Assembly: GCA_030427255.1 (NCBI GenBank)
Contig: JAUHWY010000022.1
Location: 1-58,563, forward strand
Length of the DNA stretch: 58,563 bases
Direction: 5' to 3'
DNA from: Bacteroidia bacterium
Lineage (GTDB): Bacteria; Bacteroidota; Bacteroidia; CAIKAF01
In this document: positions 1,554-58,563 of the stretch, piece after piece
Layout: each line of letters starts with the position of its first letter
How positions within the stretch are numbered: position 1 is the stretch's first letter
The notes under the pieces: model-generated
What the model saw: the letters and a program-made list of their open reading frames with translations, nothing else
Databases searched by the model: none
What the model was told of the DNA's origin: nothing
Position numbers and translations under genes: made by a program

Positions 1554-2066
1554 ATGAACTACCAAAACAACCGCGTACACACTACGCTGGGTAAGGAAAA
1601 GCTAGAGGCCATCCTTGCCCAAATTCGTGCACTCGAGGAATCCTTCCCTCAGTTGACTCCACTTACGTCAAAGGAACGGGCGCACATGCAAACCATCAGC
1701 GGTTCCAACAAACTCTTTGTGGAAGATGCCACGGAGTTGATGGCCGGAAAGCCGGAGCTTCTGCCCAAATTTTTGGAAGCAAAGGATGTGCAGCTGGACT
1801 ACCAGCTATTTCAAGAACTGGACCAGATATGCCAAGCCATGGAAATCCTTTTCTCCAAAATCTCGGACACACGGTTTTTGGCTGGGGCCGAGGCCTTCAA
1901 TGGGGCGCTCATGTTTTACCAATCGGTTAAGTTCGCCACGCGGGCAGCTGTTCCCGGCGCTAAGCCCGTTTACGAACAACTAAAGGGTCGATTCAAGTTT
2001 CAGGCCTCCAACAGCAAGCCCTCAGGAGCCGAAACAGAGTTTACAGAAAACCCGGATTTGGCCTAA
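1554..2066 (+). CDS. 170-aa helical protein of unknown function (paralogue 1)
   Basis: I do not recognise this family. The protein is soluble, has no signal peptide or membrane segment, looks mainly alpha-helical, and ends in an acidic tail. It aligns end to end with the 170-aa product of 51696-52208: both begin with an NRVH.TLGK segment, share a central ELDQI segment, and share a region with the pattern R.LAGAEA..GAL.FY.SV followed by a YE/YD.LK.RF stretch. The ATG at 1554 is preceded by an A/T-rich leader with a possible -7 box near 1504. Downstream come a perfect poly-G/poly-C palindrome (2119-2137) and a phased tandem array (2174-2425); the second paralogue has the same order of parts. 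A nucleic-acid-binding or array-linked role is only inference from this context. Confidence 0.8.
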   Translation: MNYQNNRVHTTLGKEKLEAILAQIRALEESFPQLTPLTSKERAHMQTISGSNKLFVEDATELMAGKPELLPKFLEAKDVQLDYQLFQELDQICQAMEILFSKISDTRFLAGAEAFNGALMFYQSVKFATRAAVPGAKPVYEQLKGRFKFQASNSKPSGAETEFTENPDLA

Positions 2067-2118
2067 AGCACACCCTGCTACCTTCCAAAGGATGGGCGCT
2101 ACCTAAACTCCAATAAGA

Positions 2119-2137
2119 GGGGGGGGGTACCCCCCCC
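2119..2137. other. G9-TA-C8 palindromic homopolymer tract
   Basis: Nine G, then TA, then eight C form a near-perfect palindrome 52 bases after the stop of the 170-aa gene and 36 bases before its repeat array. It could be a strong hairpin or a slippage-prone tract. A comparable G10/G7 double tract lies between the other 170-aa gene and its array (51496-51517). Confidence 0.85.
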
Positions 2138-2173
2138 TTTACCGGTTCTGAAACCACCCAAGCCGGGGCAAAA

Positions 2174-2425
2174 CACAAGCACACTTGACTAAAACACAAG
2201 CCAAGGGATTCCAAAAACAAGCCGGCTTGTCCAAGTCACAAGCCAAGCGTTTCCGAAGTCATGACAGCTTGTCTAAGTCACAAGCACCCTTCGTCAAGCC
2301 ACAAGCTCAAGGGTTCCTAAGTCAAGACAGCTTGTTCAAACCAAAAGCTCACTTCGCTGTACCCTAAGCCAAGCAGTTCGGAAGTCAAGACAGCTTGTGC
2401 AAGCCACAGCTGCGCTTTGCGTAAA
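2174..2425 (+). repeat. Phased tandem array, 63-bp unit (21 + 42 bp)
   Basis: Units beginning near CACAAGC start at 2174, 2195, 2237, 2279, 2300, 2342, 2363 and 2405, so every spacing is exactly 21 or 42 bases and the higher-order unit is 63. The 42-bp modules carry an inverted repeat such as ACAAGCT/AGCTTGT; one copy has ACAAGCC/GGCTTGT, a compensated change. The array lies directly downstream of the 170-aa gene on the same strand. A TTG-started frame of 60 codons runs through it, but this follows from the 21-base period and has no visible ribosome-binding site, so I treat the array as non-coding. Confidence 0.85.
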
Positions 2426-3747: not shown

Positions 3748-3776
3748 AAGCAAATAAAATAAGTTGAATTAATCCA

Positions 3777-3884
3777 GCTCCGTAGAAGCGCATTCTTTGC
3801 TGCTAGCTCCGTAGGAGCGGAACCTCCGGAGCTCCGTAGGAGCGGAATCTTTTCACCTCAGCTCCGTAGGAGCGTAATCTTTGT
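3777..3884 (+). repeat. REP palindromes, left flank of RAYT
   Basis: Four copies of GCTCCGTAGGAGCG (the first with one change) start at 3777, 3806, 3831 and 3861, mostly followed by a TAATCTTTG-like tail. The last tail runs almost into the ATG of the transposase at 3888. The palindromic head plus unpaired tail is the form expected of REP sites recognised by RAYT transposases. Confidence 0.9.
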
Positions 3885-3887
3885 GCT

Positions 3888-4349
3888 ATGGCAAACACTT
3901 ACACTCAATTACTGATTCAACTTGTATTTGTGGTAAAGTATCGCAGGGCGATGATCCACGAAGATTTCCGGGTGCCGCTTGAAAAATACATGACCGGAAT
4001 CATTCAAAACAACAAACATAAACTACTTGCCATTTATTGCATGCCGGACCATTGTCATATTTTGGTAGGCCTTCACCCCTCGCAATCCATTTCAGATTTA
4101 GCAAGGGACATTAAATCGAATTCCTCCAAATGGATAAACGACCATAATTATACCATTGCTAAATTCCAATGGCAGGAAGGGTATGGTGCATTTAGCTATG
4201 CCAAAAGCGAATTGGATAGGGTGGTCAATTACATTTTGAATCAACCGGAACGTCACCGGAAAAAAAACCTCAAGAAAGAGTACATTGAACTTTTAGAGAT
4301 TTTCCATATTGAATATGAGCATCGATATCTGTTTGATTGGCTAGACTAA
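3888..4349 (+). CDS. REP-associated tyrosine transposase (RAYT, Y1/IS200-like)
   Basis: This 153-aa protein has the Y1 HUH signature PDHCHILVG (about residues 53-61) and a downstream helix, GYGAFSYAKSELDRVVNYI, where the nucleophilic Tyr is expected. The length and the absence of a partner TnpB fit the domesticated RAYT family. Such enzymes nick and join single-stranded DNA at REP hairpins. Here the gene sits between four REP copies on the left and seven on the right, which is strong contextual support. It may still be active, since the core motifs are intact and the palindromes are nearly identical. Confidence 0.9.
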   Translation: MANTYTQLLIQLVFVVKYRRAMIHEDFRVPLEKYMTGIIQNNKHKLLAIYCMPDHCHILVGLHPSQSISDLARDIKSNSSKWINDHNYTIAKFQWQEGYGAFSYAKSELDRVVNYILNQPERHRKKNLKKEYIELLEIFHIEYEHRYLFDWLD

Positions 4350-4354
4350 GGTTT

Positions 4355-4617
4355 CGCTCCTACGGAGCTAAGGGGTAGGGAGACAGCCAAAAGAAAGGTT
4401 TCGCTCCTACGGAGCTAAGGGGCAGGGAGACAGCCAAAACTAAGGTTTCGCTCCTACGGAGCTAAGGGGCGGGGAGACAGCCAAAAGAAAGGTTTCGCTC
4501 CTACGGAGCTAAGGGGTGCGCACAGCTCCGTAGGAGCGAAATCTTCGTGGTCGGGCAAGCGCAGCTCCGTAGGAGCGTAATCTTTGCGCGAACAGCTCCG
4601 TAGGAGCGTAACCTTTG
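4355..4617 (-). repeat. REP palindromes, right flank of RAYT (47-bp tandem plus three inverted)
   Basis: The palindrome in inverse orientation (CGCTCCTACGGAGC) starts at 4355, 4402, 4449 and 4496, exactly 47 bases apart, with a conserved AAGGGG.AGGGAGACAGCC spacer. Three copies in forward orientation follow at 4525, 4564 and 4594. The whole RAYT gene is therefore bracketed by REPs in opposite orientations. Confidence 0.9.
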
Positions 4618-6233: not shown

Positions 6234-6742
6234 TCGAGCTTTTCCATAAGCCAGCTGCGCTGCAGCATCCAAAGGCTGCCATCGGCACGCACCGTTTCAT
6301 GGTGCAGCTCCCATTGTTTTTCCTTAAGAAGTATGCGCCAGCGATTGGCGTAGAGGCCTCCTTTGCCGTCGGGTCGGTAAGCTCCTATAAATACGATGCT
6401 TTGGTTGTCGAGTTTGGCGCCTTCCAATAGTTCGGTATCGCCTAGGGCGTTGGTAATCAAGGCCAGCCAGCGCAATTGATTTTTTTGGAAACTTAGGTTC
6501 CACAGGCTGTGGACTCCGGGGATGGTAAGTTTGAGTGACCAGGCACAGCCGTTGAGGCTTTGGGACCAAGTGGCCGTGCCGCTGACGTCCGGGCCTTCGA
6601 GGGCGCGGAGGGTCCATTCTCCTTCTAAGGGTTCAAAAATCCGGTGTACAGCACTGCAGCAGGAGCAATCAGAAAGTTCGGGCTCTTGGGCTGAAACGGA
6701 TAGGGAAAAGGCCAAAAAAGCAAGGAAAACTAGATGTCTCAT
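6230..6742 (-). CDS. Exported protein of unknown function (DUF1579-like)
   Basis: This 170-aa protein has a signal peptide ending near SVSAQ (residue 19) and a short CSCC cluster just after it. A beta-rich body contains EGEWTL, GTATWSQSLNGCAW and HHETVRADGSLW segments. The pattern of a baseline weighting strand followed by alternating strands resembles small periplasmic proteins of the DUF1579 type, but I cannot confirm the family. It overlaps the convergent WG-repeat gene by four bases, so the two genes probably share transcriptional termination. Confidence 0.65.
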   Translation of the reverse strand: MRHLVFLAFLAFSLSVSAQEPELSDCSCCSAVHRIFEPLEGEWTLRALEGPDVSGTATWSQSLNGCAWSLKLTIPGVHSLWNLSFQKNQLRWLALITNALGDTELLEGAKLDNQSIVFIGAYRPDGKGGLYANRWRILLKEKQWELHHETVRADGSLWMLQRSWLMEKLD

Positions 6743-6772
6743 AGGTTGTGTTAGGCAATAATGGTACCAAAG

Positions 6773-50954: not shown

Positions 50955-51516
50955 CAATGCCAAGGCCCTGGCGACGAAATATCCATGCACTAAACATTGC
51001 ATTACCTAAATTCCGGATATACTATCCACTTTTTACCCAAAGCATTACCCAACCAAGCTATATGCTATCCATGCATCAAGCAATGCATTACCTAAATTCC
51101 GGATATGCTATCCACTTTTTGACCAATGCATTACCCAGGCGAGGTATATGTTATCCATGTAATAGGCAATGCATTACCTAAACTCCGGATATGCTATCCA
51201 CTTTTTGACCAATGCATTACCCAAGCGAGGAATATGCTATACAAGTATTAGGCAATGCATTACCTAAATTTCGGATATACTATCCACTTTTCACACAAAC
51301 CATTACCCAAGCGAGGTATATGCTATACATGCATTAGGCAATGCATTACCTAACTAATGGATATGCTATCCACAATTTCACCCCTGATATACCAAAACAA
51401 GGAATATGCTATCCATGTAGGGAACAATGCATTACCTAAATTCCGGATATGCTATCCATTTTTTGACCCCCGATATACCTGAAAAAGGTATATGGCCCCC
51501 CCTTTTACCCCCCCCC
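50955..51516 (-). repeat. 86-bp tandem array (43-bp half-units) of the second 170-aa gene
   Basis: ATTACCTAA starts at 51001, 51087, 51173, 51259, 51345 and 51431, exactly 86 bases apart, and a related half-unit with ATTACCCAA lies 42-43 bases after most of these. A partial half-unit precedes the array from 50955. Each half ends in a hairpin core like GGATA-TGC-TATCC. The last unit decays into a GGTATATGG/C-tract. The array lies downstream of the 170-aa gene (reverse strand). 86 is not a multiple of three, so it is non-coding. Confidence 0.9.
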
Positions 51517-51517
51517 C
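51496..51517 (-). other. Double G tract (G10-TAAAA-G7 on the coding strand)
   Basis: On the plus strand C7, TTTTA and C10 lie between the array and the terminator of the 170-aa gene. It is the counterpart of the G9/C8 palindrome at 2119-2137. Confidence 0.85.
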
Positions 51518-51636
51518 TTTATTTGCCGCCCATATAGACTTTCCTTTTCTGCCGGCGGTTTACAGGCTGGTTTGGATTATGGATTATTGGCAGCTCCAAG
51601 CGGAGAAGAATACCGGTTAAGCATTACCTTCCGCCA

Positions 51637-51660
51637 ACAAAAAGCCCCGCAAGCGGGGCT
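51637..51660 (-). terminator. Rho-independent terminator of the 170-aa gene
   Basis: On the reverse strand AGCCCCG, C-TTG, CGGGGCT and TTTTTG form a strong hairpin with U-tract, 36 bases after the stop. An isolated GCATTACC half-unit lies just beyond it (51621). Confidence 0.9.
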
Positions 51661-51695: not shown

Positions 51696-52208
51696 TTAGG
51701 CCGGATCTTCGGGAACAGCTTCGGCGGTTTCTTCGTCCGGGGCTTTGGAGAAATTGCCTTGACCTTCGAAGCGGGCTTTAAGCGCATCGTAAAGGGCTTT
51801 GCTGTGGGACACGCCTAGGTTTGCGGCGGAACGGACCGAGCGGTAAAAAATCAGCGCCCCTTGCATGGCCTCTGCCCCGGCCAAACGGCGGGTATCGGTA
51901 ATCTTTTGTTGCAAAGCCGCCAACACATCCGAGATTTGGTCCAGCTCCCTATACAACTCAAAATCGGCCGCCACCTCTTCGGTAGAAACAAAGCCGGGCA
52001 GCATATCCGGATGACGTTGCATCATCTCCACGGCATCCTGCACAAAGGAGAGATTTCCATCACCTAAGGGAAGAATTTGATTCCGTTCCCTGTTGTTTAG
52101 GTTTTGGAGCATAGGCATTTGCGTTTCCAAACGCTTTAACTCGTTAAGGATGTTGTTTACAGCATCCTTTCCCAAGGTGGCATGCACCCGATTCATAGAA
52201 TTACTCAT
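51696..52208 (-). CDS. 170-aa helical protein of unknown function (paralogue 2)
   Basis: This is the full-length paralogue of 1554-2066 and has exactly the same length. Shared features are the NRVH.TLGK start, an F-V-x-D-A-x-E-x-M/L segment, ELDQI, a DTR.LAGAEA..GAL.FY.SVR/K stretch and an acidic tail (ETAEAVPEDPA). It is probably a soluble helical bundle. It has its own terminator, then a double G tract, then a 43/86-bp array on the coding-strand side, the same order as at the first locus. The function is unknown; link to the array is inferred from the repeated architecture. Confidence 0.82.
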   Translation of the reverse strand: MSNSMNRVHATLGKDAVNNILNELKRLETQMPMLQNLNNRERNQILPLGDGNLSFVQDAVEMMQRHPDMLPGFVSTEEVAADFELYRELDQISDVLAALQQKITDTRRLAGAEAMQGALIFYRSVRSAANLGVSHSKALYDALKARFEGQGNFSKAPDEETAEAVPEDPA

Positions 52209-52401
52209 ACGGTAAACAATTTTGAATGGTGGGCAAAGCCCTTAAAACTATCAAGGGTGAATTTAAACACCATTTTAGAAATACGCAAACTTTTTCTAGT
52301 ATTTTTTGATCGAATTTTTCTGATAGGCCGGAATTACAAGCCCTTCAAGGGAAACCCAGGCTAGTTTTTTGCATGGTTTAAGGTATGAGGAGGAGTTATT
52401 T

Positions 52402-52895
52402 GGGCGCCTAATCCGTCTCCGGCCATTAGCTGCCTAGTGGGGGGTTACGCCGCTCCGCCCACCTAAGGAGCTTCCTGTGGTCGCTCTTAGTTGGGCAGCG
52501 GCTGTGCCCCCCCCCCACATCGGCAGGCTAATTGGCCTGCGCCGGGGCGCGTTAAGCTCCGTTTGGTTGTTGTCCTAAGGAAAGAAGATCTACAACTTTT
52601 GCCACGGCGGTAAGATGCTCCAAGGCAAAATAGGAGACCAAGAGCTGGCACATTTTTGTTGGTTCAAATCCGTTTTTTTCTATTTTTATGGTTGAAATCA
52701 ACGCCCATGTATTGGCCCATCATCCAACATAGAAGAGAAAAACGGGTTGCTTTGGCATTTCCTGTTCAATGGGTTAGAATTGGCGCAATAAGAAGTTCTT
52801 TCGATGAATTGGAAATGGCTTATGATTCGAACAAAAATTGCGGATTTAATCCCAAATGGAGGTATTTGCGCATGAAAGATGCGGGTATAAACAAG
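52402..52895 (+). repeat. Duplicated block 2: family A hairpin element plus conserved leader and ORF
   Basis: 52402-52550 is family A copy 4, with GCCCA (52457) and CTAAG (52463) pairing with CTTAG (52486) and TTGGGC (52491). The remainder matches block 1. Here the small ORF is complete. The part 52209-52401 before it holds the leader of the 170-aa gene and nothing else that I can identify. Confidence 0.88.
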
Positions 52896-54661: not shown

Positions 54662-56497
54662 ATGAACAAAAAAGACATACTCGATAAAATAAAAAGCCTA
54701 GACGGCCTCAGCAATGAAGAACGTGCCTACTTGGTGAACTTGGTAAACACCAAAAAGAAGTACGGCTTGGTATGGGAAGACAAACCAGAAGAAGTAGAAG
54801 AGCAACTACGCACCAAGCTACCCATACTCAAAGAGGTAAAAGAACGGGCCATTATTAACGATACCTTTACCCTGAGCGGAGCTGAAGGGGAAACCTACCC
54901 CAACCACATTCTCATAGAAGGCGACAACCTACACGCCCTCACCGCCCTCACCTTTACCCACGAAAATAAAATTGACTTGATTTATATTGACCCGCCTTAC
55001 AATACGGGGAAAAAAGATGAATTTAAATACAACGATAAATACGTAGATAAAGAGGATACTTTTCGGCACAGTAAATGGCTGTCATTCATTTCGAAACGAT
55101 TGGCCATTGCAAAAAAACTACTTCAAGATGATGGCTTAATTCTAATCTCAATTGATGATAATGAATTGGCTCAGTTAAAACTTCTTGGCAATGAGATTTT
55201 TGGAGAAAGAAATTTTGTGGGTCAATGGCAATGGTATAAATCTGCAACACCCCCAAATCTATCTCATAAAATTCGTAAGAATTTAGAATACATAGTAGGT
55301 TGGGAGAAGCAAAAAAACAATACGAAGTATGAAGGTGCTCAAAAAGAAAGTAAAAGTGATGATCCGCTAACAAAGCCCCAAAATACGATAAAGGAGTTAG
55401 TTTTTCCACCAAACTCCATAGAGTTTAAAGTTGAAAAGGCCTTCTACAAGCCAGGAATTTACGGAACATCTAAGTACCCTAATGAATTGTTAGAGACTAT
55501 CGAAGTAGAAAACTTTACGAATAAGACAGAGGTAATATTTAAAAATAGATTTGTTTGGACCCAACCAAAATTAGAGGAGGAGCTTGAAAACAAAACAAAG
55601 ATTAAGTGTTCAAAAACCTTAGTTCTCTCCTACAAAAAAAGCAATTACGACAAAGAGGTCCCTTTAAACCTTATTGATGAAAGCGTTGGCGTTGATACAA
55701 CAGAAGAAGCAGGTAAATATCTTTTCAGCCTTTTTGGAACTAAAGTTTTTGATTACCCAAAGCCTGTTTCCTTGCTGAAATATCTTCTTCAGTTTAAGAA
55801 ATCTGAATTGATACTCGACTTTTTCGCAGGGTCAGGAACAACACTTGAAGCCACTATGGAAATCAACGAAGAATTGGAAACTCATAAACAATGCATACTT
55901 GTTACTAACAACGAAAACAACATTGCAGAAGAAGTGACCTATGAGCGTAACAAGCGGGTGATACAAGGTTATACCAATGCCAAAGGGCAAGCTATAGAAG
56001 GTCTCAAAAACAACAACCTCCGATACTACCAATGTGATTTTGTAGAGCGTGAGCCTTCTTTGGCCAATAAACGCCAGCTCACCCAATTGGCTACCGAGCT
56101 GCTGTGTATTAAAGAAGATTGTTATCAAGAGGTTACAAGCACTCTCAATTCAGAAGTATGGAATAAACTCTTTACCAACGGCCAAGGGCAGTATGTTTAT
56201 GTAGTCTTTGATGATCTGTTCATCGAAGAGGCGGTTGAAAGTCTTACTGAGTTTGTAGCACAAGAAGCACCTGAAAATAAAATTAAAGTCTATGTATTTG
56301 CCAATGGCCAATACGCCTACGCAGAAGAGTTCGAAGACATAGCGGAGAACATTACCCTAGCTGCCTTACCGGATGCCATTTACAAAGCCTATCAAAACGT
56401 GCTGCCTAAAGAAAACAAGGACTTTGTTCCTGTTTTAGAGGAAGACTTGGAGGCCAATGCAGAACAGAGTGATTTGTTTAATCAAGAACAAGATTAG
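54662..56497 (+). CDS. mod: Type III restriction-modification DNA methyltransferase (Mod)
   Basis: This 611-aa N6-adenine or N4-cytosine methyltransferase is of the beta class: motif IV DLIYIDPPYNTG (about residues 102-113) precedes motif I LDFFAGSGTTLEA (about 385-397). An N-terminal helical region and a central target-recognition region of about 200 residues complete the usual Mod size. It pairs with the Res subunit (57529-58491), which is interrupted. The methyltransferase alone may still modify host DNA. It appears intact. Confidence 0.92.
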   Translation: MNKKDILDKIKSLDGLSNEERAYLVNLVNTKKKYGLVWEDKPEEVEEQLRTKLPILKEVKERAIINDTFTLSGAEGETYPNHILIEGDNLHALTALTFTHENKIDLIYIDPPYNTGKKDEFKYNDKYVDKEDTFRHSKWLSFISKRLAIAKKLLQDDGLILISIDDNELAQLKLLGNEIFGERNFVGQWQWYKSATPPNLSHKIRKNLEYIVGWEKQKNNTKYEGAQKESKSDDPLTKPQNTIKELVFPPNSIEFKVEKAFYKPGIYGTSKYPNELLETIEVENFTNKTEVIFKNRFVWTQPKLEEELENKTKIKCSKTLVLSYKKSNYDKEVPLNLIDESVGVDTTEEAGKYLFSLFGTKVFDYPKPVSLLKYLLQFKKSELILDFFAGSGTTLEATMEINEELETHKQCILVTNNENNIAEEVTYERNKRVIQGYTNAKGQAIEGLKNNNLRYYQCDFVEREPSLANKRQLTQLATELLCIKEDCYQEVTSTLNSEVWNKLFTNGQGQYVYVVFDDLFIEEAVESLTEFVAQEAPENKIKVYVFANGQYAYAEEFEDIAENITLAALPDAIYKAYQNVLPKENKDFVPVLEEDLEANAEQSDLFNQEQD

Positions 56498-56506
56498 GCA
56501 GATGGC

Positions 56507-56554
56507 TTTTGGTAATCTCATAAATATCCGTACCTTTGCAGGTAATAGTACCTG
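56507..56554 (+). promoter_or_regulatory. Promoter and operator-like palindrome of abi gene
   Basis: TTTTG at 56507-56511, a spacer of 19 bases, then TACCTTTG at 56531-56538 form the best Bacteroidota promoter in the window. Immediately after is the palindrome CAGGTA-ATAG-TACCTG (56539-56554), at the expected transcription start. A second inverted repeat, CCTGCC and GGCAGG (56551, 56580), could form an alternative leader hairpin. Confidence 0.75.
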
Positions 56555-56632
56555 CCATGCCTCTCAAAGAAGCACACTCTGGCAGGTTTTCGCTTTTAAT
56601 AGCCCTATGTTGTCTTATCAAAACAAGGGCTT

Positions 56633-57532
56633 ATGAAGTATCAAAAGCCAGCCCTAACCATTGCCGAGCAAATTCAACGCCTTCAAAATCGTGGGTTATT
56701 TATACCCGATCCCAAGCGTGCGGCACATTATTTAGGCAACATTAGTTATTACCGCCTGCGGGCTTATACCTATCCGTTTCAAAATAATGAGGATCCCAAC
56801 CACCCCTTCATTCAAGAAATCAGCTTTGACGAAATCCTCAACCTCTATGTCTTTGATAGACAGTTACGTTTGTTGCTATTCAATGCCATAGAGAAGATTG
56901 AGATTGCCTTCCGCACCCAAATCATTTATCGCTATGCTCTAGCCTATGGTGCTTTTTGGCATTTAAACACCGAATTATACAACAACTCACATTATTTTGC
57001 TCAGCACATTGCTGCACTCGATAAGGAAATCTTTCGTAGTAAGGAAACCTTTATAGAACACTACAAAGCTACGTACACTGAACCCGACACTCCACCTGCT
57101 TGGATGGCCTTAGAAGTGAGCAGTATGGGCTTGCTGTCTAAAATTTTCTCTAACCTAAGAAGAGATAAAGGTCCCAAAGATGAAATTACACGGTACTTCG
57201 GAGTTAAAGACGTTGACACGATTGAGAATTGGTTGCGTTGTTTCTCACTTTTGCGCAACCTATGCGCCCACCACAGCCGCGTTTGGAATAGGCGCATGAC
57301 CAAAATGAAGATTCCGCGCAAAACGCTCAATCCATTCATTGAGAACAAAAACATACTGCCGTACAAGGTTTACAGCTACATCACGGCCATCAATTACATA
57401 TTGAACATCATCAGTCCGGGGCATCATTTTAAAGCCAATTTATTGGCTTTAATGGAAAACTGCCCCTTGGCACAAGAAAGAGAAATGGGCTTTCCTGAAA
57501 ATTGGAAGGCAGAAAACTATTGGAATTTATGA
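56633..57532 (+). CDS. Abi_2 family abortive infection protein
   Basis: This 299-aa protein has the AbiD/AbiF (Abi_2) pattern: an N-terminal TIAEQIQRLQNRGL helix, LGNISYYRLRAYTYPF, ILNLYVFDRQLRLLLFNAIE, EIAFRTQII, and a C-terminal RNLCAHHSRVWNR, which has the R-x4-H of HEPN RNases. The gene has its own strong promoter and sits between mod and res, overlapping res by ATGA. It is probably an RNase-type effector acting in phage defence. The unusual position inside a type III operon suggests selection for co-inheritance or co-control. Confidence 0.88.
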   Translation: MKYQKPALTIAEQIQRLQNRGLFIPDPKRAAHYLGNISYYRLRAYTYPFQNNEDPNHPFIQEISFDEILNLYVFDRQLRLLLFNAIEKIEIAFRTQIIYRYALAYGAFWHLNTELYNNSHYFAQHIAALDKEIFRSKETFIEHYKATYTEPDTPPAWMALEVSSMGLLSKIFSNLRRDKGPKDEITRYFGVKDVDTIENWLRCFSLLRNLCAHHSRVWNRRMTKMKIPRKTLNPFIENKNILPYKVYSYITAINYILNIISPGHHFKANLLALMENCPLAQEREMGFPENWKAENYWNL

Positions 57533-58491
57533 TTACCCTACGCAAATACCAGGAAGAAGCGGTTCAAGGTCTTTTGAAGGACACCTACAGCTTATTAGCT
57601 AAACCTGGGGCCAGGCACAAAATGGTGTTTAAAGCCCCTACAGGTGCAGGTAAAACGGTTTCGATGGCGGCATATCTGAATCAGCTAAGCAATGAAATGC
57701 CTGATAAACTAGAGTTGCCCAAACGTAAAGTGGCCTTTATTTGGTTTGCTCCCAATCAACTGCATTTGCAGTCGTATCTATCGCTTAAAGATTACTTCGA
57801 GGAGTTAAGAACCATTAAGCCTATCCAATTTGAAGATATTTCAGATGGGCAACTTAAGCCCAACGAAATGCTATTTGTGAATTGGCAATCAGTAAACAAA
57901 GAGAACAATCTATTCATAAAAGAAAATGAGCAAGGCAAAGACCTTATCAAGTTTGTGCATAGCGCCATGCTAGATGATATTGTAATCATCTGCATTCTGG
58001 ATGAAGCACATTACCATGCCAAGGGTACTAAGGCCAAAGAACTGTTGCAAAAAATTCACGCAAAGGTTGAAATTGACGTATCGGCCACTCCTCACTTCAG
58101 ATCAGACTATGGCTATACCATTAGAAGAGATGCGGTAATTGAAGCAGAGATGATTAAGAAAAATGTGGTACTCAACCCAGCATTAGACAAACACACCCAA
58201 CAAGGTCGTTCACTTAGTCAGGTATTGCTAGAAGAAGCTTTAAAAAAGCGAGAAGAGTTGGCAAGGGCTTATCAAGAACTGGGGTCTAAGGTCAATCCAT
58301 TATTGCTCATTCAATTACCTAATGAAACCAAAACGGAATCAGCTTTAGACAAGCAGATGATTGAAGAGGTAGAAAACTTCTTAGACTACAAGGGTATAAC
58401 CACCCAAAACGAACGATTGGCCGTTTGGCTTAGCAATGCATATTCCGGCGATACTGACCCCCCTTCCGGTGATATTGCCCCCCCTTTTTAG
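57529..58491 (+). pseudogene. res: Type III restriction endonuclease Res subunit, truncated by IS21-like end
   Basis: The ATG at 57529 overlaps the Abi_2 stop. The 320-aa frame begins RKYQEEAVQGLL, with helicase motif I FKAPTGAGKTVSM, motif II LDEAHYHAK (DEAH), motif III DVSATPHF, all normal. Res proteins are usually 850 aa or longer. Here the frame runs into IS21-like terminal sequence near 58440 and ends at 58491, so the second helicase domain and the nuclease domain are lost. Restriction activity is not expected, while Mod and Abi_2 remain. Confidence 0.85.
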
Positions 58492-58563
58492 GTTTTGGTT
58501 TCAAAGAACATGACAGCCTGACAATTTTACTGTTTTTTCCTTAGACTCTCTCCTTTTAACTCA
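58440..58563. mobile_element. IS21-like insertion sequence, left end
   Basis: Two tandem copies of TTCCGG(C/T)GATA(C/T)TG(A/C)CCCCCC at 58444-58487, as in the multiple terminal repeats of IS21-family elements, lie at the point where the Res frame becomes unrelated sequence. The rest of the element lies outside the window. Confidence 0.65.

Follow-up and report, generated by a model that had tools for sequence, protein, structure and literature searches.

In the ParR/parC and TubR/tubC plasmid centromeres, tandem sites set at whole helical turns lie beside genes for small DNA-binding proteins, and the sequence of these sites varies while their spacing is kept. Plasmid iterons are helix-phased repeats of 17-22 bp that accompany the gene for a small protein. 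Here we analyse a window, a stretch of 58,563 nucleotides of Bacteroidia DNA taken at its full length, in which two copies of a gene, here termed family A, are each followed by a phased tandem array.

Two family A loci in one window

The first-pass annotation had described 170-aa paralogues at 1554 and 51696, each followed by a phased array, and this description is confirmed, with periods of 42/63 and 43/86 bp at the two loci. The features of both loci are as follows:

1554..2066, plus strand: family A gene, copy 1 (170 aa, acidic, predicted to be all-helical)
2119..2140, plus strand: terminator-like hairpin, G9-TA-C8-TTT, which accounts for the poly-G tract of copy 1
2195..2406, no strand: phased tandem array 1, with periods of 21/42/63 bp
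50980..51468, no strand: phased tandem array 2, with periods of 43/86 bp
51496..51531, minus strand: poly-G leader GGGCGGCAAATAAAG10TAAAAG7, 3' of the copy 2 hairpin
about 51639..51660, minus strand: terminator-like hairpin AGCCCCGCTTGCGGGGCTTTTTG, directly 3' of copy 2, as read from the sequence
51696..52208, minus strand: family A gene, copy 2 (170 aa)

Pairwise comparison of the two proteins gave 42% identity over their full length. The G tract of copy 1 reads as one arm of the terminator-like hairpin, which is composed of G9 (2119-2127), TA, C8 (2130-2137) and then TTT. At copy 2, the order on the coding strand is gene, hairpin, G tracts (G10 at 51508-51517 and G7 at 51496-51502, both beyond the hairpin) and array 2. 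Array 1 occurs once in its own genome. Array 2 contains palindromes such as GGATAGCATATCC as well as the imperfect TAGGTAATGCATTGCCTA, and is one of six dispersed genomic copies (C3, C39, C44, C51, C53 and C55) that are 72-87% alike; the loci L248, L249, L251, L262 and L263 correspond to contigs C39, C51, C55, C53 and C3. Five of the six copies have no family A gene adjoining, and one partial copy was found in a congener without family A. The poly-G leader is part of the dispersed repeat, with similar leaders at C39, C44 and C51. Chromosomal target sites for the array 2 palindrome were considered and rejected, as genome sites with up to three mismatches were confined to the arrays and one position inside a ribosomal protein gene.

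Defence genes lie near five of the six array 2 copies, with type III restriction-modification near those of C44 and C51, and AbiL with AbiE, DarTG with AbiD, or DUF1016 next to a pair resembling AbiE (the pair judged by eye) near other copies. The window from 54662 to 58563 together with L249:1-1505 holds a type III methyltransferase, an AbiD-like gene and a restriction subunit truncated by the end of the window. The assembly has probably split a single island, with its ends on C44 and C51; since C51 probably continues the restriction subunit at the window end, the arrays may bracket this island. The dispersed copies of array 2 may represent a distinct phenomenon, that of repeats linked to islands.

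Another dispersed repeat, containing a C10 run, occupies 52396-52566 of the window and is 87% identical over 172 bases to a stretch that lies next to the related array in the congener G006 (L255). At 3775-4516, an IS200-like (Y1) transposase gene (3888-4349) lies between arrays (3775-3882 and 4348-4516) of short palindromic repeats built around GCTCCGTAGGAGCG, an arrangement that resembles a REP-associated transposase.

Family A and its association with tandem arrays

Searches with a single window protein recovered the two known copies alone from its own genome, and nothing from 15 relatives belonging to the same family. When GTDB genomes were scanned with patterns from one window protein, no match appeared because the patterns were too specific. 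With a profile built from both copies, 35 of the 395 Bacteroidia genomes searched gave matches, up to seven per genome; profile searching found about 80 family A genes in these genomes, and the iterated profile joined 79 open frames as one family (set 1). A further profile search, seeded with four homologues, returned 323 loci in GTDB genomes, 80 of which were kept (set 2, L108-L187). The two sets are nearly independent samples; three of the 80 set 2 loci repeat set 1, and these are counted in the set 2 figures and excluded from the pooled 150 genes. Set 2 hosts include Pedobacter, Tannerella, Paludibacter, Maribellus, Draconibacterium and Taibaiella, along with metagenome-assembled genomes (MAGs) labelled Spirochaetes, Ignavibacteria, Verrucomicrobia and Planctomycetes. 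Family A is found across Bacteroidota, and its range probably extends beyond them. MAG contamination can account for single labels (e.g. Rubrivivax), less easily for the several Spirochaetia. The loci sit on contigs of up to 3.1 Mb. A phage or plasmid origin was rejected, as no match was found for copy 1 by tblastn against 72,556 plasmids, for copy 2 in phages, or for the family in viral contigs.

Family A is under purifying selection (Ka/Ks 0.05-0.20) and its members are acidic, with a median pI of 5.4, which makes direct DNA binding by the protein doubtful. The structure predicted for A (pLDDT 90.9) is all-helical and includes one helix of 55 residues. Comparison of this model with the PDB gave a best Foldseek E value of 3.8 and a best VIA Z score of 4.7 over 44 residues, and no viral fold match was found. 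No Pfam family matched more than one of the 79 members, and neither a Rep family nor Y1_Tnp was matched; NCBIfam gave no credible match for the two window copies, and PHROGs gave none for four homologues. No homology between A and the array-linked proteins A2-A10 was detected by hhalign, which is weak evidence given that the profiles are very shallow.

Arrays were scored as tandem repeats with a period of 20-22 bp, or a multiple thereof, within 500 nt past the stop codon. This revealed an array downstream of 56/76 family A genes in set 1 and 54/76 in set 2, with upstream counts of only 5/79 and 3/79, respectively; among control genes of the same loci, arrays were present downstream of 5/291 and upstream of 5/269. 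The link between gene and array is established statistically (Fisher p about 1e-40 per set, with relatives counted as independent genes), and amounts to a roughly 40-fold enrichment over control genes, nearly always on the same side. The array starts a median of 89 nt past the family A stop. Mean autocorrelation is about 0.41-0.44 at lag 21, 0.40-0.45 at lag 42 and 0.38-0.41 at lag 63, versus about 0.26 elsewhere. A terminator-like hairpin is found within 90 nt past the stop in 46% of family A genes, whereas the figure is 10% for control genes and 9% for the reverse strand. Array similarity stays at the null expectation where the proteins are less than 40% identical and increases once identity passes about 70%, and the pairs L085/L033 and L146/L154 have unrelated arrays despite close A proteins.

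These counts uphold the first-pass view that the repeats are more than chance and that a conserved architecture accompanies non-conserved repeats, a combination now seen across 150 family A genes. The annotation had also asked whether homologues lack arrays, or whether arrays are equally common beside unrelated genes, and on this point the comparison with ordinary genes came out in favour of the annotation. The shared order it had proposed, gene, G tract and array, is retained for gene and array but not for the G tract: runs of at least seven G or C are not enriched beside family A (4/150 versus 6/291 controls), contrary to the G tracts expected downstream of homologues, and the poly-G tract was rejected as a part of the family.

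Neighbour clustering identified no constant neighbour of A besides the array, apart from two families of small genes (B), which encode proteins of 81 aa or proteins of 100-126 aa with an HTH and a coiled coil. Both lie directly beyond the array on the same strand (15/15 immediately downstream and 11/11, respectively), as at L043:4383-4641 and L057:4218-4563 (families in L188-L247), and the HTH domain of the one B family is of the XRE type. Small B genes found without A have an array with a period of 21 bp or a multiple thereof (21n array) upstream in 10/12 and 13/19 cases. At most A loci no small B-type gene adjoins, and the next gene past the array is of any kind, in the same orientation in 90 cases and the opposite in 53. 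A general defence-island location of A was rejected, neighbours elsewhere being ordinary and diverse. Two individual arrangements were also noted: in genome G170 (L044, L047), tandem family A genes, one of them in a frame of about 324 codons, precede one shared array and an 81-aa gene, and at L095 the family A gene (6285-6758) is followed 391 nt later by the start of a type II-C-like Cas9 gene, probably by chance.

The arrays are not exclusive to A, as at least four other small-protein families share them on the upstream side (24/28, 20/30, 28/31 and 21/30). In a class-wide test within L265-L361, A2 (239 aa; L302-L361) had the array upstream in 24/28 and downstream in 1/29 loci, and A8 (313 aa; L265-L301) upstream in 20/30 and downstream in 8/30. 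The array is thus a general element whose side is characteristic of each protein family. In a 740-kb sample of genome G100, intergenic 21n arrays numbered about 16; many of them adjoin other small proteins, and unnamed helical or Fn3-like ones are among the array neighbours.

Nature of the arrays and candidate roles

While unit sequences vary by locus, the spacing of 21 bp, equal to two turns of DNA, is constant. A significant dyad axis was detected in 51% of 110 arrays at p<0.05 and in 33% at p<0.01, relative to columns permuted within the unit; a 10.5-bp spacing of dyad centres was discarded as a signal, being a trivial outcome of the 21-bp period. Rotational alignment uncovered a weak common motif, CTYNRAG with an A/T box (AATT) about half a unit apart, which carries 5.2 bits of information versus 3.5 bits in permuted controls and transferred between samples, with 22% and 37% of the arrays reaching p<0.05. 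A/T steps occur in 10.5-bp phase more than expected. Set 2 arrays also show a weak 7-bp sub-period (lags 7, 14, 28 and 35) within the 21-bp units, which is extreme in L146 (GAACTCT repeats).

The palindromic units and their length, similar to that of small guide RNAs, could suggest an RNA element, with arrays transcribed as repeated hairpins or processed into 21-22-nt RNAs. This is improbable, as terminator-like hairpins separate the gene from the array, the units show no compensatory change (z=0.3), and the motif can face either way with respect to the gene, 60-67% sharing one orientation. That 21 bp should represent seven codons of a hidden, translated heptad repeat can practically be discarded: many arrays are open in some frame, but open frames are not in excess of those in column-permuted arrays (1.87 versus 1.97), and the periods of 20, 22, 43 and 44 that occur disrupt the frame. 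The terminator-like hairpins between gene and array, the lack of compensatory pairing and the presence of dyads favour DNA over RNA, and the features of the units point to a helix-phased, two-fold symmetric element acting at the DNA level. Where the first-pass annotation had allowed for a DNA- or RNA-based element, the data therefore speak for the former and against the latter.

A satellite-like dispersed element is a more serious contender, if a somewhat unlikely one. Self-spreading or amplified repeats would settle by certain genes, the proteins being neighbours or hitchhikers, and this would agree with the five array 2 copies that lack A, the copy in a congener without A, and the density of arrays in G100, many by unrelated proteins. 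It fits poorly with the strength and one-sidedness of the A association, with the different but fairly constant side taken by the arrays of other families, and with units that differ by locus, as copying one element would not yield such a difference. The same observations qualify the earlier proposal that protein and array form one module: their association holds, but the array is not private to A, being shared with the other families and, for array 2, found mostly without it. Plain cis-regulation, in which an operator- or enhancer-like array would set the expression of the adjacent gene (the downstream gene for B, A2 and A8, and autoregulation for A), is unlikely. Dyads and helical phasing are operator hallmarks, and four families carry the array upstream; in family A, however, the array is 3' of the gene, often past a terminator-like hairpin, and is followed by a gene of any kind in either orientation.

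Since helical phase is combined with dyads, protein binding is the most economical reading of the arrays. We tentatively favour, at somewhat less than even confidence for the whole, a model in which the arrays would be double-stranded DNA platforms, with phased DNA bound by protein and A as a partner. Dyad-symmetric tandem sites spaced by 21 bp would present one face of the helix, and a dimeric DNA-binding protein could bind them cooperatively. If recognition is specific to each locus, unit sequences would be expected to differ while spacing and symmetry persist. Family A would be a small, cytosolic, helical protein acting with, or on, the nucleoprotein array, and in the three-gene loci the small gene beyond the array probably encodes the DNA reader, either the protein with the XRE-type HTH and coiled coil or the 81-aa protein. 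Such a platform may serve to anchor or organise the chromosome locally, or to control a neighbour in a graded way.

More broadly, these loci could belong to a large and as yet undescribed class of chromosomal cassettes with two or three parts, each cassette comprising a small cytosolic protein from one of several unrelated families, a locus-specific dyad array with units two turns apart and sometimes a small DNA reader. In such a class, sequence would diversify while geometry is kept, in the manner of private address tags or miniature centromeres on one chromosome; we regard this as possible rather than probable. Arrays number about 20 per megabase in G100, the one genome sampled besides the window's own, and the protein families beside them match few Pfam domains or none. 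Outside centromeres and operators, fixed geometry is rarely combined with free sequence, and motif searches would therefore miss the whole class. As bound platforms, the arrays would constitute a widespread added layer of chromosome organisation or regulation in Bacteroidota; as selfish elements, they would amount to a novel type of bacterial satellite linked to proteins.

Comparison with known systems

No described system with the anatomy of a gene and a 21-bp array was found in the open-licence full-text literature, although an earlier description is possible, and we rate the combination as a kind of system undescribed in that literature. CRISPR loci are similar in having direct-repeat arrays with a period of roughly 20-45 bp beside genes. 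The A arrays differ in lacking variable spacers, their contiguous units matching at 21, 42 and 63, and no cas genes are present at A loci other than the Cas9 neighbour at L095. REP/BIME elements and their RAYT proteins likewise tie short extragenic palindromes to a protein family; REPs, however, are scattered and share one sequence genome-wide, whereas A units form locus-specific tandem arrays, and A is not a Y1 (IS200-like) transposase. Iterons resemble the A arrays in placing short helix-phased repeats beside a small protein gene, while A differs in the absence of a Rep domain and of a plasmid match and in its many paralogues per genome. Relative to parC and tubC, clustering and a Pfam scan revealed no recurring motor gene of the ParA, ParM or TubZ type among the neighbours of A, and the A loci lie on large chromosomal contigs, with copy 1 unmatched among plasmids. 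The likeness to these centromeres lies in the arrays themselves, whose 21-bp spacing and dyads would fit a phased-repeat binding platform.
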